This document shows, piece by piece, positions 765 to 18,222 of a stretch of DNA of 64,000 bases (the first letter of the stretch is position 1; each line of letters opens with the position of its first letter). The notes under the pieces are model-generated. The model worked only from the letters and a program-made list of their open reading frames with translations, was not told where the DNA came from and searched no databases. The translations under genes were made by a program, and so were the position numbers. Location of the stretch: the NCBI GenBank assembly GCA_021815405.1, contig JAKAGV010000001.1:1-64000 (forward strand), in the 5' to 3' direction. The DNA comes from Bacteroidota bacterium (GTDB taxonomy: Bacteria; Bacteroidota; Ignavibacteria; Ignavibacteriales; Ignavibacteriaceae).

Positions 765-886
765 CTGAAGTTACGCAAAATGAATAAAATGATCCATTTG
801 TCATTCCGAACTTGTTTCGGAATCTTTATTTTTAAGCTGTTTTTAGATGCTGAAACAAGTTCAGCATGACAAATGCGTAACTTCAG
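765..886 (+). mobile_element. 122-bp terminal-inverted-repeat element, copy A
   Basis: The ends are CTGAAGTTACGCA and TGCGTAACTTCAG, perfect inverted repeats. Inside are two hairpins, ATTCCGAA/TTCGGAAT and ATGCTGAA/TTCAGCAT, themselves arranged as an imperfect inverted pair. The element is flanked by identical 7-bp direct repeats TTACATT at 758-764 and 887-893, the mark of transposition with target duplication. It carries no coding capacity. It differs from the reverse complement of the copy at 15201-15322 by about one base, so one or both moved recently. The structure is MITE-like; the enzyme that moves it is not in the window. Confidence 0.88.
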
Positions 887-905: not shown

Positions 906-1304
906 ATGCCAGAAATTAGCATGTTTTATGATATCATAATTGCAATGTACTGGGAAAGAAAAACAGAACATCATTCTGCTCACTTTCATGAAATTTATAA
1001 TGAGTTTGACTGCAAATATAGCATACCTAAATTGAGTATTATGGAAGGCTCTTTGCCTAACAAGGCGCATAGAATGGTAATAAGCTGGGCGAAAAAACAT
1101 ATTAAAGACTTACATTACGCACAATTAAGGATCTAATTTACTTTGTCATTCCGAACTTGATTCGGAATCACATTTTTCAGCATTTTTGGGATGCTGAATC
1201 AAGTTCAGCATGACATGTGCGTAACATGAGTTAAAGAGTTAGAAGCTAATTGGAATATGGCACTTAATAATGAACCTTTGAGGAAAATTGAGCCTTTGTT
1301 ATAG
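906..1304 (+). pseudogene. DUF4160 protein gene split by a 122-bp element
   Basis: The N-terminal part reads MPEISMFYDIIIAMYWE and continues through HFHEIYNEF, the usual start of DUF4160 proteins. The frame runs into an inserted element at 1109 and stops early. Deleting the element (1109-1230) and one copy of the 7-bp duplication TTAAAGA rejoins the frame exactly: the residues HIKELEANWNMALNNEPLRK follow and the gene stops at TAG 1302-1304, giving an 89-residue protein with a normal DUF4160 tail. DUF4160 genes usually sit directly before a DUF2442 gene, as here, and such pairs are suspected toxin-antitoxin-like modules. The shortened 76-residue product probably does not work. Confidence 0.85.
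1109..1230 (+). mobile_element. 122-bp terminal-inverted-repeat element, copy B, inside DUF4160 gene
   Basis: Same length and architecture as copies at 765 and 15201, with more diverged ends (CTTACATTACGCA and TGCGTAACATGAG) and hairpins (ATTCCGAA/TTCGGAAT, ATGCTGAA/TTCAGCAT). It is flanked by a perfect 7-bp duplication TTAAAGA at 1102-1108 and 1231-1237. Because the host reading frame is known, the insertion boundaries are fixed independently of the repeat itself. The diverged ends suggest an older insertion than copies A and D. Confidence 0.88.
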
Positions 1305-10260: not shown

Positions 10261-11124
10261 ATGAAGGGAATTATACTTGCGGGGGGATCGGGATCGAGGC
10301 TGTACCCGGTTACTAAAGTCTATAGCAAGCAGCTTACGTTAATATATGATAAGCCGCTAATTTATTATCCGCTCTCTATGCTTATGCTTGGCGGGATAAA
10401 GGATATTCTTATCATTTCCAACAAAGAAACGATCCCTTTGTACAAACAACTTTTTAACAGCGGCGCTCATTTAGGATTAAATATCGAGTATGCAGTACAA
10501 GATGCACCTAACGGTATAGCGGAGGCGTTCATAATCGGGGAGAAATTTATAAACGGCGAAAGCGTATCATTGATATTAGGCGATAATATTTTTTACGGAA
10601 ATCTCGAGTTCTTTTATAAAGCTTTGAGGAATAATGTTGATGCAACGATATTCGGCTACCAGGTTAATGATCCGGAGAGGTACGGTGTAATTGAGTTTGA
10701 TGAAAGTGGCATAGCATTGTCCATTGAAGAAAAACCTTCAAAGCCCAAATCGAATTATGCAGTTCCGGGAATTTATATTTATAATAATGATGTTGTAAAC
10801 ATTTCAAAGAATTTAAAACCATCTGCCCGGGGCGAGCTTGAAATTACTGATGTGAACCGCGAGTATTTAAAACAAGGCAAGCTTAAAGTAGAAAAGATAG
10901 GCAGAGGCATTGCCTGGCTGGATACCGGTACCCCGGAAGCACTGCTGCAGGCGGCAAACTTCTTCGGTGTAATTGAACAGAGACAGGGATTGAAGGTTGG
11001 ATGTGTAGAAGAGATTGCATATAGGATGAAGTTTATATCAAAAGAGAAGTTTGAGAAATTAATTAACTCAATTCCAAAGTCATCGTACAGAAGTTATTTA
11101 GAAAGAGTGATGGTGGATTTTTGA
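10261..11124 (+). CDS. rmlA: Glucose-1-phosphate thymidylyltransferase
   Basis: A 287-residue enzyme that makes dTDP-glucose from dTTP and glucose 1-phosphate, the first step to dTDP-rhamnose and related sugars. The start MKGIILAGGSGSRLYPVTK holds the nucleotide-binding loop; LILGDNIFYG carries the metal-binding aspartate, and GRGIAWLDTGTPEALLQA is typical of the short RmlA class. Length is normal. RmlC follows at 12217, separated by the GIY-YIG/repeat island, but RmlB and RmlD are not in the window, so the pathway is completed elsewhere or leads to another dTDP-sugar. Confidence 0.96.
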   Translation: MKGIILAGGSGSRLYPVTKVYSKQLTLIYDKPLIYYPLSMLMLGGIKDILIISNKETIPLYKQLFNSGAHLGLNIEYAVQDAPNGIAEAFIIGEKFINGESVSLILGDNIFYGNLEFFYKALRNNVDATIFGYQVNDPERYGVIEFDESGIALSIEEKPSKPKSNYAVPGIYIYNNDVVNISKNLKPSARGELEITDVNREYLKQGKLKVEKIGRGIAWLDTGTPEALLQAANFFGVIEQRQGLKVGCVEEIAYRMKFISKEKFEKLINSIPKSSYRSYLERVMVDF

Positions 11125-11141
11125 TGTTGTAGGACCCGTAT

Positions 11142-11370
11142 TGTCATCCCGAACTTGTTTCGGGATCTGTATCGAGATGCTGAAATAAATTCAGCATGAC
11201 ACTTTCATCCTCGAGTAATAAAGAAATGAAAAACTATTTATATTTATATATTAATAAATTATAGAGAATAAATTAAATGGTTCATTTGTCATCCCGAACT
11301 TGTTTCGGGATCTGTATTGAGATGCTGAAATAAATTCAGCATGACACTTTCATCCTCGAGTAATAAAGAA
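11142..11370 (+). repeat. Tandem 145-bp repeat units leading into the GIY-YIG gene
   Basis: The phrase TGTCATCCCGAACTTGTTTC starts at 11142 and again at 11287, exactly 145 bases later. Each unit has the double hairpin of the 122-bp elements, then TCATCCTCGAG, then ATGAAAAACTATT. In the first unit the ATG phrase runs into a short dead end; in the second it is the real start of the GIY-YIG gene at 11371. A second pair with the same 145-base spacing (11736 and 11881) lies after the gene. The unit therefore contains a fragment of the gene's 5' end. Confidence 0.82.
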
Positions 11371-11661
11371 ATGAAAAACTATTATGTTTATATATTATCA
11401 AATAAATCTAAAACACTTTATATTGGCGTTACAGATGATTTGGTTAGAAGACATTATGAACACAAAAATAAATTAATAGAGGGATTTACAAAGAAGTATA
11501 ACATATCAGTATTAGTTTATTTTGAAACTTTTTCTTCCATTGATCACGCAATCAAAAGAGAAAAGCAACTAAAGAATTGGCATCGTCAATGGAAGATTAA
11601 TCTGATCGAAAGTAAAAATAAAGAGTGGAACGATTTAAGCGAAGAAATAATACAGTATTAA
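11371..11661 (+). CDS. GIY-YIG nuclease family protein
   Basis: A 96-residue single-domain protein with the GIY-YIG core: YYVYILSNKSKTLYIGVT near the start, the conserved arginine in DLVRRHYEHK, and a tail KREKQLKNWHRQWKINLIE typical of the small stand-alone class (UPF0213/YhbQ-like). These domains cut DNA using one metal ion. An in-frame start 30 bases upstream exists, but it lies in the repeat hairpin, and MKNYYVYILSN is the usual beginning. The gene is flanked on both sides by the 145-bp hairpin repeats and sits between rmlA and rmlC as an obvious insertion in the sugar operon. A role in spreading the repeats is my inference, not known. Confidence 0.88.
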   Translation: MKNYYVYILSNKSKTLYIGVTDDLVRRHYEHKNKLIEGFTKKYNISVLVYFETFSSIDHAIKREKQLKNWHRQWKINLIESKNKEWNDLSEEIIQY

Positions 11662-11701
11662 AGGAATTAAACTTTGTTGAAATATCAGTAAAAATTAATA
11701 A

Positions 11702-11970
11702 CTGAAGTTACGCAAAATGAATAAATTGGTTCATTTGTCATTCCGAACTTGTTTCGGGATCTGTATTGAGATGCTGAAATAAATTCAGCATGACACTTTC
11801 ATCCTCGAGTAATAAAGAAATGAAAAAGCATTTATATTTATATATTAATAAATTATAGAGAATAAATTAAATGGTTCATTTGTCATCCCGAACTTGTTTC
11901 GGGATCTGTATCTTTAAGCTGTTTTTTTAGATGCTGAAACAAGTTCAGCATGACAATTGCGTAACTTCAG
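11702..11970 (+). mobile_element. Composite terminal-inverted-repeat element, copy C
   Basis: The outer ends CTGAAGTTACGCA and TTGCGTAACTTCAG match those of the 122-bp copies, and the element is flanked by a perfect 7-bp duplication TTAATAA at 11695-11701 and 11971-11977. At 269 bp it is the 122-bp element enlarged by about one 145-bp unit: two double-hairpin segments start at 11736 and 11881, with the ATGAAAAA gene fragment between them. This links the mobile element family to the repeats around the GIY-YIG gene. Confidence 0.85.
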
Positions 11971-12026
11971 TTAATAAATCAATTAATTGGAGACTAGAAG
12001 CTAAACTTCTTACTTTTTCTTAATAA

Positions 12027-12115
12027 CTGAAATTATGGGAAATAATATTTTTGCATTGTTTTAAGATGCTGAAATAAATTCAGCATGACACTTTTATGAT
12101 GTCACGTAACTTCAG
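12027..12115 (+). mobile_element. Degenerate, shortened copy of the inverted-repeat element
   Basis: Begins CTGAAATTA and ends CACGTAACTTCAG, keeps only one hairpin (ATGCTGAA/TTCAGCAT, as GATGCTGAAATAAATTCAGC), and is 89 bp long. The left flank is TTAATAA, but the right flank no longer repeats it. It appears to be an old copy that has lost one internal hairpin. Confidence 0.6.
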
Positions 12116-12216: not shown

Positions 12217-12759
12217 ATGAAAGTAGAAAAAACATTTATACAGGATTTGTTAGTTATTGAGCCGGACGTGTTTGGAGATGACCGGGGATATTTTTTTGAA
12301 TCGTTCAGTTATAAAAAATATGAAGCATACGGGATTGAATTGAATTTTGTGCAGGACAATATCTCGAAGTCCAGGAAAGGAACGCTGAGAGGACTGCATT
12401 ACCAGGTCGGTGAAAAAGCACAGGGAAAACTTTGCCAGGTTATTAAGGGAAAGGTTCTGGATGTTGCTGTAGATATAAGATCCAGCTCGCCTACATTTGG
12501 AAAATATTTTTCAGTTGAACTTTCGGAGGAGAACCATCTTCAGTTATGGATACCGAAAGGATTTGCTCACGGCTTTTCGGTTATCTCGGATGAAGCAGTC
12601 TTTCATTATAAGTGTACGGAATATTACAGTAAGCCCGATGAACGGGCAATTCTTTACAATGATCCTGACTTAAAAATTGATTGGCGGGTTGATAATCCTA
12701 TTGTTTCCGAAAAGGATAAACAAGGCAAACTGTTTAAGGATATTGAACGGGATTTCTAA
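12217..12759 (+). CDS. rmlC: dTDP-4-dehydrorhamnose 3,5-epimerase
   Basis: A 180-residue cupin enzyme that epimerises dTDP-4-keto-6-deoxyglucose at C3 and C5. Family motifs are clear: PDVFGDDRGYFFESF, TLRGLHYQ (catalytic histidine), GKVLDVAVDIR (aspartate partner), WIPKGFAHGF, and the tyrosine region KCTEYYS. Length is normal. It follows the repeat island that separates it from rmlA, so the original rmlA-rmlC linkage has probably been interrupted by insertions. No rmlB or rmlD is nearby. Confidence 0.95.
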   Translation: MKVEKTFIQDLLVIEPDVFGDDRGYFFESFSYKKYEAYGIELNFVQDNISKSRKGTLRGLHYQVGEKAQGKLCQVIKGKVLDVAVDIRSSSPTFGKYFSVELSEENHLQLWIPKGFAHGFSVISDEAVFHYKCTEYYSKPDERAILYNDPDLKIDWRVDNPIVSEKDKQGKLFKDIERDF

Positions 12760-15148: not shown

Positions 15149-15375
15149 TAGAACACAGATAACACTGATTATACAGAATGTCACTGATAAAAATTAATAA
15201 CTGAAGTTACGCAATTGTCATGCTGAACTTGTTTCAGCATCTAAAAACAGCTTAAAAATAAAGATTCCGAAACAAGTTCGGAATGACAAATGGATCATTT
15301 TATTCATTTTGCGTAACTTCAGTTAATAATTTGTGTAAATAAAAGTTATCCGTGTCATCAGTATCCTATTGATTT
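15149..15375. repeat. Inverted repeat of the CACTGATTACAC type, interrupted by element D
   Basis: The flanks of the 15201 element, read together after removing it, give ATAGAACACAGATAACACTG on the left and ATCAGTATCCTATTG on the right, which are roughly inverse to each other. A similar unit without insertion lies at 19638-19745. The 122-bp element therefore landed inside an older repeat of a different family. Confidence 0.6.
15201..15322 (-). mobile_element. 122-bp terminal-inverted-repeat element, copy D
   Basis: Exactly 122 bp, ends CTGAAGTTACGC and GCGTAACTTCAG, flanked by a perfect 7-bp duplication TTAATAA at 15194-15200 and 15323-15329. Its sequence is the reverse complement of copy A (765-886) apart from about one base, so it is inserted in the opposite orientation. 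It separates fcl from gmd. It has no coding capacity. Confidence 0.9.
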
Positions 15376-16731: not shown

Positions 16732-18222
16732 ATGCAGACGATTGTTAAGGCAGCTTTAATTTTTTTATTTATTTCCGGCATCAGCTTATCACAAGTAGAA
16801 TCTAGAAGGTACAACGCTTTCTCAGGTACAATGGTATTTACAGTTGACGGTGGAGTTACAATTGGCAAGACAGACTATTCTCAAATCAAACCAGACTATT
16901 TAGGTAAAGTATCCTTAGATTATTTTTTACCGGCTTATTCAAAAAGTAACTTCGGCTTCAGAGTTTTCGGCGGAGGCGGTTATATAGCCGGCAAGGATGT
17001 TACGCTTGTTCCTGCCGTGTTTAGAACGAAATTATCTTTTATCGGCGGAGGGGTTATATATTCGCTTGAAGCCGGAAGATATGCCTTCCCGTACTTTTTT
17101 GCAGGTGCATCGTACTTATGGTTTGATCCTCTTGGACCAGGCGGGGTAAAGCTTCCGAATAATTTGAACAATGTTTATAAGAAACACGAAATTGATTATA
17201 ACGGAGAACTAGGTTTTCGATTCCTGTTGACAGATAACTTTAGTGTTAATGTAAGTGGGGGAATTCAATTAAGTCCAAATGATTATCTTGATGATGTAGC
17301 AATAGGAACTAACAACGATATGTTTTATTATGCTTCGGTAGGATTTTCTTTTTCATTCTTCACAGATAATGATTCGGATGAAGACGGAGTTCCTGACTCG
17401 AGAGATCATTGTCCGAACACACAAAGAGGTGTTGCTGTTGATGAATTCGGATGCCCGATAGATTCAGATCATGATGGTGTTCCAGACTATATGGATAAAT
17501 GTCCGAATACGCCCAAAGGAGTTGCGGTTGATAAAGACGGCTGCCCTTTAGATTCCGATGGAGACGGTGTTCCTGATTATCGAGATGTTTGTCCGAATAC
17601 GCCGAAAGGAGTGAAGGTTGATGACTTAGGCTGCCCGCTGGATTCGGATGGAGATGGAGTTCCGGATTATAAAGACAAATGTCCAAATACACCAGCAGGA
17701 GTTCAGGTAGATTCGGAAGGCTGTCCGATCGATTCAGACCATGATGGCGTTCCTGATTATCTTGATAAGTGCCCTGATACACCGGCGGGAGTGAAAGTTG
17801 ATTCAACAGGATGTCCGGTTAAAGAAGAGGTCAAAAAAGAAGTAAAGAAAGAAGTTCCGGAAGTAGTTTCCGAAGAAGCCGCCAAAGTTACATTAAGCGC
17901 AGGGGCAACATTTGCATTCGGGAAAAGCAAACTGCTTCCTTCAGCCTTTCCTGAACTTGATAAATTGATTAAAGTAATGAAAGAGAATTTACGCAGCCGG
18001 TGGCTTATTGCAGGCTATACCGATAATATTGGTTCGGATAACGCTAATAAAAAAGTTTCATTAGAAAGAGCAAAAGCTGTAATGGAATACCTGGTTGCAA
18101 AAGGAATAAATATTAGATGGCTAAGAGTGATAGGATACGGAAAGGCGAATCCGGTAGCCAGCAATGCAACTGAAGAAGGAAGGGCGAAAAACCGCCGTGT
18201 AGAAATTACAAGAATAAATTAA
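16732..18222 (+). CDS. OmpA-family outer-membrane protein with thrombospondin-3 repeats
   Basis: A 496-residue protein: signal peptide (about 1-21, ending SLSQ), a beta-barrel-like region (about 25-210), five calcium-binding thrombospondin type 3 repeats of 30 residues each (about 214-363, pattern DSDGDGVPDYKDKCPNTPAG), a lysine/glutamate linker, and a C-terminal OmpA peptidoglycan-binding domain (about 380-496) with AGYTDNIGSDNANKKVSLER. Such proteins tie the outer membrane to the wall and are common in Bacteroidota. It has its own terminator upstream and stands as a single gene. Confidence 0.92.
   Translation: MQTIVKAALIFLFISGISLSQVESRRYNAFSGTMVFTVDGGVTIGKTDYSQIKPDYLGKVSLDYFLPAYSKSNFGFRVFGGGGYIAGKDVTLVPAVFRTKLSFIGGGVIYSLEAGRYAFPYFFAGASYLWFDPLGPGGVKLPNNLNNVYKKHEIDYNGELGFRFLLTDNFSVNVSGGIQLSPNDYLDDVAIGTNNDMFYYASVGFSFSFFTDNDSDEDGVPDSRDHCPNTQRGVAVDEFGCPIDSDHDGVPDYMDKCPNTPKGVAVDKDGCPLDSDGDGVPDYRDVCPNTPKGVKVDDLGCPLDSDGDGVPDYKDKCPNTPAGVQVDSEGCPIDSDHDGVPDYLDKCPDTPAGVKVDSTGCPVKEEVKKEVKKEVPEVVSEEAAKVTLSAGATFAFGKSKLLPSAFPELDKLIKVMKENLRSRWLIAGYTDNIGSDNANKKVSLERAKAVMEYLVAKGINIRWLRVIGYGKANPVASNATEEGRAKNRRVEITRIN
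17371..17820 (+). repeat. Five tandem 90-bp repeats coding for thrombospondin-3 units
   Basis: Five in-frame 90-bp units, each coding for a DSDxDGVPDYxDKCPNTPxG-type unit. The DNA copies have diverged at silent positions, so this is old, protein-selected repetition rather than a recent expansion. Confidence 0.9.

Follow-up and report, generated by a model that had tools for sequence, protein, structure and literature searches.

Introduction

The bacterial repeats known as CGTC-tagged REPs are short palindromes with a CGTC, TGTC or CCTC tag, a stem of 8 or 9 bp opening with AT, a loop of 4 or 5 nucleotides and a tail close to CCA; they occur mostly as head-to-head dimers, often made of two different stems (Di Nocera et al., 2013; PMC3733652). 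The dRS3 repeat of Neisseria is a member of this family (PMC3733652). That survey found no dedicated transposase for these repeats, the check made there having concerned transposase genes (PMC3733652).

In REP/RAYT pairs, the gene of an HUH tyrosine transposase is flanked by palindromes of its own class, which are also dispersed as non-autonomous copies. The locus described here has both properties, and differs from these pairs in that the enzyme belongs to the GIY-YIG family and the tag is TGTC instead of GTAG. A study of Ssn (Nat Commun, 2025) reportedly describes GIY-YIG single-strand nucleases that go with NTS repeats; Neisseria Ssn is reported to cut single strands at specific sites, with dispersed repeats as its targets and an effect on transformation. 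The protein studied here resembles Ssn as a single-domain GIY-YIG protein of about 95 aa whose presumed cognate repeat is found both near the gene and dispersed in the genome, with a repeat-specific partner in each lineage. The properties measured here are two-sided flanking, class matching over many phyla and capture by an IS701-type MITE. A literature search limited to titles and abstracts, with most subscription papers outside its coverage, returned no link between GIY-YIG genes and REPs and no description of Ssn.

Results

A small GIY-YIG gene lies among hairpin-pair units

The stretch of DNA analysed (the window) is 64 kb long and belongs to a 5.0-Mb genome of 31 contigs (G000). The gene and the hairpins around it are the following (positions in the window):

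11141..11285, + strand: unit A, 145 bp, with a hairpin pair, a stub of the 5' end of the gene and a MITE-like arm
11142..11168, + strand: class A hairpin with TGTC tag, 8-bp stem and 5-nt loop
11175..11201, - strand: class A hairpin, inverted partner of the preceding one
11286..11370, + strand: first part of unit B, a hairpin pair adjoining the gene on its upstream side
11288..11313, + strand: class A hairpin upstream of the gene
11320..11345, - strand: class A hairpin upstream of the gene, inverted
11371..11661, + strand: GIY-YIG nuclease gene, 96 aa plus stop (Pfam PF01541)
11737..11794: hairpin pair of unit C
11882..11954: unit D hairpin pair, ending in the right arm of the composite MITE listed below

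In a profile search the 96-aa protein scored 56.2 bits against Pfam PF01541 (cut-off 22.6). The best PDB match to its AlphaFold2 model (mean pLDDT 92.7) was the UPF0213 structure 1zg2 (E 5.8e-5), and Slx1 was also among the best; the predicted fold is that of the GIY-YIG family. Residues Y7, Y17, G19, R27 and E64, which we take to be catalytic-type positions, are invariant in an alignment of 26 relatives. The dN/dS of the gene is 0.06-0.10 against three relatives, with dS saturated, and by this sequence-based ratio the open 96-aa gene is under purifying selection.

The neighbouring genes, named by eye from their translations, encode a sugar-nucleotide transferase (end at 11124) and an epimerase-like protein (start at 12217). 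In a scan across species, the nearest named relatives of the protein were from Ignavibacteria. The gene does not match group I intron homing endonucleases (15.1 bits against TIGR01453, cut-off 56.05, and the gene sits between genes), and a phage origin was rejected (all 10 matched phage records were at 34-35% identity, and none covered 80% of the query). Elsewhere in the window, five 90-bp repeats (17371-17820) were observed inside an OmpA-like gene with calcium-binding-type repeats, also named by eye.

The hairpin-pair units of 145 bp begin at 11141, 11286, 11735 and 11880 (units A, B, C and D), which confirms the 145-base steps that an initial annotation had placed before and after the gene, its starts being one base too high. 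Units A and C are identical at 141 of 145 positions; over the first 93 positions, unit B differs from unit A at a single one. Every unit opens with two inverted hairpins; both hairpins of unit A were folded and have a 4-nt TGTC tag, an 8-bp stem opening with AT and a 5-nt loop, with folding z-scores of -4.1 and -5.3. Such inverted, head-to-head pairs are present in the window at 800/845, 11143/11175, 11288/11320 and other places.

Unit B is continuous with the GIY-YIG gene. The stub in unit A matches the gene exactly through ATGAAAAACTATT, and about 40 nt of the gene align in all; the alignment contains small indels that break the frame, and unit C reads ATGAAAAAGCATT. The copy of the first codons of the gene that had been reported within the repeat is thus present, 'a dozen codons' being a generous description of it. 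A search of the 5-Mb genome with one 25-base pattern (up to 3 mismatches) found the stub-bearing unit at three places, all at this locus; therefore gene and repeat were copied together, as had been proposed, but only locally. Since in units A and C the gene stub is followed by a MITE-like arm, these units look like derivatives of the gene-bearing unit by internal deletion, and the array of 145-bp units probably formed by local duplication of that unit combined with such deletions.

The window hairpins share with CGTC-tagged REPs the tag, the 8-bp stem opening with AT, the loop and the head-to-head dimers. Their class A tails, in contrast, are CTG, CTT or CTC and not CCA, which is common in class B hairpins (see below), and class B resembles the dRS3 type. 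A further difference is that here a GIY-YIG gene accompanies the repeats. On the shared features, the window hairpins fit with the CGTC-tagged REPs.

Hairpins flank related genes in many phyla

A GIY-YIG match (E 0.001) was found in 52 of the 61 genomes searched from the same taxonomic family, G000 included. Closer relatives of the window gene often have hairpins of the form GTCAT-stem-loop-stem-ATC on both sides, whereas more distant GIY-YIG genes are mostly without them. Using one fixed rule and genes with full 200-bp flanks, a hairpin was present within 200 bp of 35 of the 42 genes at 50% identity or more, compared with 3/30 below 50% (Fisher p 3e-10). Among these three is L003, which is in fact a 62% relative interrupted by a MITE. 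Seven of the 42 closer genes, L088, L090 and L091 among them, had no hairpin by the strict rule, and four of these seven (L076, the two of L052/L079, and L087) show degenerate hairpins by eye. As a separate observation, a more distant GIY-YIG gene occurs in tandem, with three copies at G026:C1:1384616-1385513 and two at G016:C26:25059-25702.

The window protein was also compared with one genome for each of 84,980 species, and the best 80 of 542 loci were analysed, a few of which are also in the 61-genome set. Among these best 80 of 542, a TGTC/CGTC-tagged hairpin lies within 200 bp of the gene at 75 loci, and the linked loci span 19 of 20 named phylum-level groups, 14 loci having no phylum name; most records are MAGs, so that single phylum assignments may be wrong. 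Still among the best 80, 70 loci have enough sequence on either side, and 52 of these have hairpins both upstream and downstream; the closest hairpin upstream is in + orientation in 50/62 cases and the closest downstream in - orientation in 51/68. Within 0-100 bp of the gene there were 131 hairpins in 15.8 kb, compared with 49 in 449 kb at a distance of 1-5 kb, by a rule that can count one hairpin twice; this fall of about 75-fold beyond 1 kb is inflated, near intervals being intergenic and far ones mostly coding. In conclusion, the tie between gene and hairpin is real and general.

Hairpin class follows protein clade

Flanking hairpins were sorted into five classes: A (GAAC-TTG-TTTC type), B (CCCGCG type), C (CTGAGCG type), D (TTCGA) and E (TGCGA). 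Hairpin class changes 20 times on a protein tree with 112 entries, of which 102 carry a label, compared with 44-58 times in 300 shuffles; this tree of a short protein is weakly supported, 65 of its 109 inner branches being open. Labels were assigned automatically by the nearest hairpin, and per-genome gene labels cover only the loci fetched. Two loci (L054, L083) are labelled B though D-type hairpins also flank both, and L052 (G029) is unlabelled, with a degenerate class A hairpin visible by eye. Together with the cross-phylum linkage and the rarity of hairpins at divergent GIY-YIG genes of the same genomes, the match on the protein tree supports the earlier proposal of a nuclease tied to a palindromic repeat, recalling REP/RAYT pairs but with an unrelated enzyme.

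Ten genomes have a class A gene, and their median number of class A hairpins is 21.5, compared with 0 for the other 51 (p 7e-8); for class B the medians are 9 (13 genomes with such a gene) and 0 (48 lacking one; p 2e-5), both p values being too small since the genomes are related. There are exceptions. Class B hairpins occur with no class B gene among the fetched loci in G055 (25 hairpins), G013 (9) and G039 (9), whereas G029 and G060 are labelled class B yet have zero class B hairpins. In G029, moreover, 21 class A hairpins occur although the genome carries no class A label, its class A gene context being degenerate. The source genome holds six GIY-YIG loci, in which the class A gene is open and a class B gene has two stops; in the genus-mate G031, where class B hairpins number 200, the class B gene is free of stops. 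These two genomes are in line with the class matching.

Homologues on plasmids and in gonococcus

In Shinella plasmids, 3 of the 15 best records matching on both flanks have the gene and two hairpin pairs, placed between genes for an amidohydrolase and a carbon-nitrogen hydrolase; in the other 12 the match skips the gene region. In the four records without it that were aligned, about 600 bp with the gene and the pairs are absent and both sides align. One gain looks simpler than repeated loss at this site, judging from the alignment.

The gonococcal homologue, which we take to be Ssn, is 53% identical to the 96-aa protein over its whole length and is embedded in a dRS3-type array of 16 hairpins in 5.3 kb, on a 2.17-Mb record filed as a plasmid. 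Chromosome-size records are filed as plasmids in PLSDB for gonococcus and Aeromonas (NZ_CP119140.1, NZ_CP119142.1, NZ_AP026896.1). The initial annotation had considered the locus the best candidate for an undescribed system; this is doubtful, since its hairpins fit the published CGTC-tagged REPs and its enzyme presumably corresponds to Ssn, and this kind of locus is probably known in part.

Other plasmid loci were more varied. For the S. meliloti homologue (L265) the strict rule gives no hairpin, and its flanks hold CTCAT-tagged palindromes by eye. On Planktothrix agardhii plasmid p1 (L264, 18847-19131), a GIY-YIG gene with class C hairpins has as neighbours an MmeI-type restriction gene on one side and drmA (DISARM) on the other. 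On Rhizobium plasmids, about 250 bp with a second dimer, 3' of the GIY-YIG gene, are present in three of five related plasmids and absent in the other two (L287-L290 compared with L266); this polymorphism falls at hairpin dimers, with no clean junction, and was left out of the argument.

How the nuclease may relate to its hairpins

The gene and the hairpins are linked on both sides, clade and class match, the two co-occur genome-wide, and at one site they are present or absent as a package. The explanation that we favour, and consider probable, is that the gene product is a GIY-YIG nuclease of the Ssn type, with the adjoining TGTC/CGTC hairpin as its cognate sequence, and that these hairpins have been captured by an IS701-type MITE. 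Gene and hairpins would then form one system, for which a GIY-YIG counterpart of REP/RAYT is the best reading, by analogy. The protein would bind the hairpin when it is single-stranded, on the lagging strand or in incoming transforming DNA. The extruded or single-stranded hairpin would be recognized by its tag and stem, and the GIY-YIG domain would nick near the tag or the base of the stem. Nicking could steer recombination or repair to the hairpins, and a gene held between hairpins could then be exchanged along with them.

A stronger role for the enzyme, in which it mobilizes the hairpin dimers by excising and reinserting them with or without the gene (a GIY-YIG REPtron), strikes us as possible though rather unlikely. 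It would account for the position of the gene in the spacer of a head-to-head dimer (+ / -) at 34 of 55 two-sided loci among the best 80 of 542, and for hairpin pairs without CTGAAGTTACGC ends in other genera (G013 and G001; L209, L210, by eye). The joint presence or absence of gene and pairs in Shinella, and the way hairpin number tracks the cognate gene, also speak for it. However, at the Shinella site divergence is too great for a target duplication to be recognized and there is no clean junction, and the GIY-YIG gene copies in G000 are at most 62% alike, so that no recent jumping of the gene is seen in that genome. Moreover, GIY-YIG enzymes hydrolyse DNA and are not known to rejoin it.

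Hairpins and small nuclease genes might instead gather by chance in mosaic intergenic islands, with no functional tie. Repeat arrays do surround the gene in gonococcus and Planktothrix, but divergent GIY-YIG genes of the same genomes rarely have a hairpin (the 3/30 given above), in G000 neither the five RAYT-like loci nor the four DDE loci have a tagged hairpin within 200 bp of the gene, and a chance gathering would hardly match hairpin class to protein clade; we regard this explanation as improbable.

Elements with CTGAAGTTACGC ends are putative MITEs of IS701-type transposons

The hairpin pairs of the window are in part enclosed in putative MITEs, listed here with one related pair:

765..886, + strand: standard 122-bp MITE with a hairpin pair
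1145..1230: diverged hairpin pair with a GCGTAACATGAG end, an end form common in G031
11695..11701: left TTAATAA, 7-bp target duplication
11702..11970: composite MITE of 269 bp with CTGAAGTTACGC ends, two hairpin pairs and one gene stub
11971..11977: right TTAATAA, 7-bp target duplication
12027..12115: degenerate MITE with one hairpin (12064-12089)
15201..15322, - strand: standard 122-bp MITE, inverted

The composite element at 11702-11970, already recognized from its family ends and its 7-bp duplication (TTAATAA on both sides), is a CTGAAGTTACGC-ended element that carries one extra 145-bp unit internally. The CTGAAGTTACGC-ended element is mostly 122 bp long and has many near-identical copies in G000, where CTGAAGTTACGCA has 147 matches with at most one mismatch, compared with 7 for the reversed control. 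Among 18 distinct elements from 30 loci (one mismatch permitted in the ends; a 260-bp candidate spanning two adjacent elements left out), 14 are 122 bp long, and exact duplications of 7 bp (TTAATAA, for example) border 13.

In the genus-mate G031, elements of about 143 bp with CTCATGTTACGC ends enclose a class B hairpin pair; the class B hairpins of this genome are 98 forward and 102 reverse, and the same element was present at nine places fetched. Several G031 contigs (e.g. C5, C8, C17-C20) start inside a class B MITE, so that the repeat breaks the assembly and its copy number is a lower bound.

The same ends enclose transposase genes in two genus-mates. In G061, CTGAAGTTACGC ends enclose a 1,175-bp element encoding a 358-aa transposase, with a 7-bp duplication that has one mismatch; this transposase (G061:C345) scored 328.8 bits against the NCBIfam IS701 profile NF049921 (cut-off 250). 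In G003, a 1,074-bp element with the same ends and exact TAAATAA duplications encodes a 337-aa relative of the G061 transposase, which at 185.9 bits is below the cut-off of NF049921. In all, genus-mates hold IS701-type elements and MITEs with CTGAAGTTACGC ends and unrelated interiors at L245, L222, L221, L223 and L233. Neither of the two transposases, both of which were searched, has a match in G000, and in G031 only fragments of the G003-type transposase were found, two of them at contig ends. The earlier statement that no transposase is present thus holds for the window and, for the two tested, for G000, but not for the genus-mates, which have IS701-type genes.

That the GIY-YIG protein itself spreads the CTGAAGTTACGC-ended element, to which the initial annotation had assigned it, is now very improbable and largely refuted. 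The composite element, with its two hairpin pairs, gene stub and target duplication, had suggested it, and in both G000 and G031 (n=2) the hairpin class in the amplified MITE is that of the unbroken gene. Against it, a transposase with the same ends, which the annotation had itself set against its reading, is found in G061 and G003; because these genes lie within the same ends, the nuclease is not needed for spread of the element, and it was rejected as owner of the ends. Elements with the same ends, no such hairpins and unrelated interiors also exist in genus-mates (L221, L223, L233). G000 has six GIY-YIG loci, and in no case is the gene enclosed by paired CTGAAGTTACGC ends; one of these genes, L003 (G000:C2, ~167555-167962), is itself interrupted by a MITE that carries class A hairpins and is bordered by a 7-bp duplication, TTATGAA, and the second half of the gene also carries stops.

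Given the transposases that they enclose, the ends would belong to IS701-type transposons, with the hairpins as cargo, and on this comparison of ends and genes the CTGAAGTTACGC elements are MITEs of such transposons, separate from the nuclease-hairpin system. Like MITEs of the IS701 family, they have ends in common with an element carrying an open transposase gene, and near-identical 122-bp copies; unlike them, their interior would be a REP dimer of the nuclease system and not a transposon remnant. IS701 makes a target duplication of 4 bp; as the duplications here are of 7 bp, the IS701 placement is by the transposase only. In the favoured explanation, an IS701-type transposon with CTGAAGTTACGC ends would have captured hairpin pairs and multiplied them as MITEs, the captured class being A in G000 and B in a genus-mate.

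Mobilization of the hairpins by RAYT/Y1 transposases, with the GIY-YIG gene as a passenger, can be given very little credit: G000 has five Y1_Tnp matches, but none of the five is a Y1/HUH transposase gene flanked by its REPs or has a hairpin at the gene, L070 merely lying between two MITEs, and tyrosine transposase genes were not flanked by CGTC REPs in the species surveyed in the earlier work (PMC3733652). Least credible of all, ordinary transcription terminators beside a small gene would also be stable stem-loops, but the window copies have no T-run after the stem, and the hairpins occur on both sides of the genes in inverted order and have a conserved unpaired TGTC tag.

Discussion

The observation is more general than first noted and is made of two systems. 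To the parts probably known already, this analysis adds linkage on both sides of the gene over a broad range of phyla, the matching of classes and the capture by MITEs. A wider proposal is that Ssn-type nucleases are the dedicated enzymes of CGTC-tagged REPs throughout bacteria: each clade would recognize and propagate its own hairpin class and travel within a hairpin dimer as a selfish REPtron-like unit that needs no transposase, and IS701-type transposons would have parasitized this system by taking its hairpins into MITEs. It is put forward tentatively, as a possibility that we think less likely than not.

The 2013 survey left open which enzyme, if any, serves CGTC-tagged REPs (PMC3733652). 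The linkage reported in this work points to a candidate enzyme, found in 19 named phylum-level groups, and the presence of relatives beside matching hairpins in many phyla makes the enzyme the likely missing partner of this repeat family. As matched enzyme-hairpin pairs of several classes are available, specificity and mobility become directly testable; if each enzyme cuts one hairpin class only, these proteins would be a ready set of site-specific single-strand nucleases. Finally, the capture of hairpin pairs by MITEs would be a case in which one mobile element multiplies the recognition site of another system.
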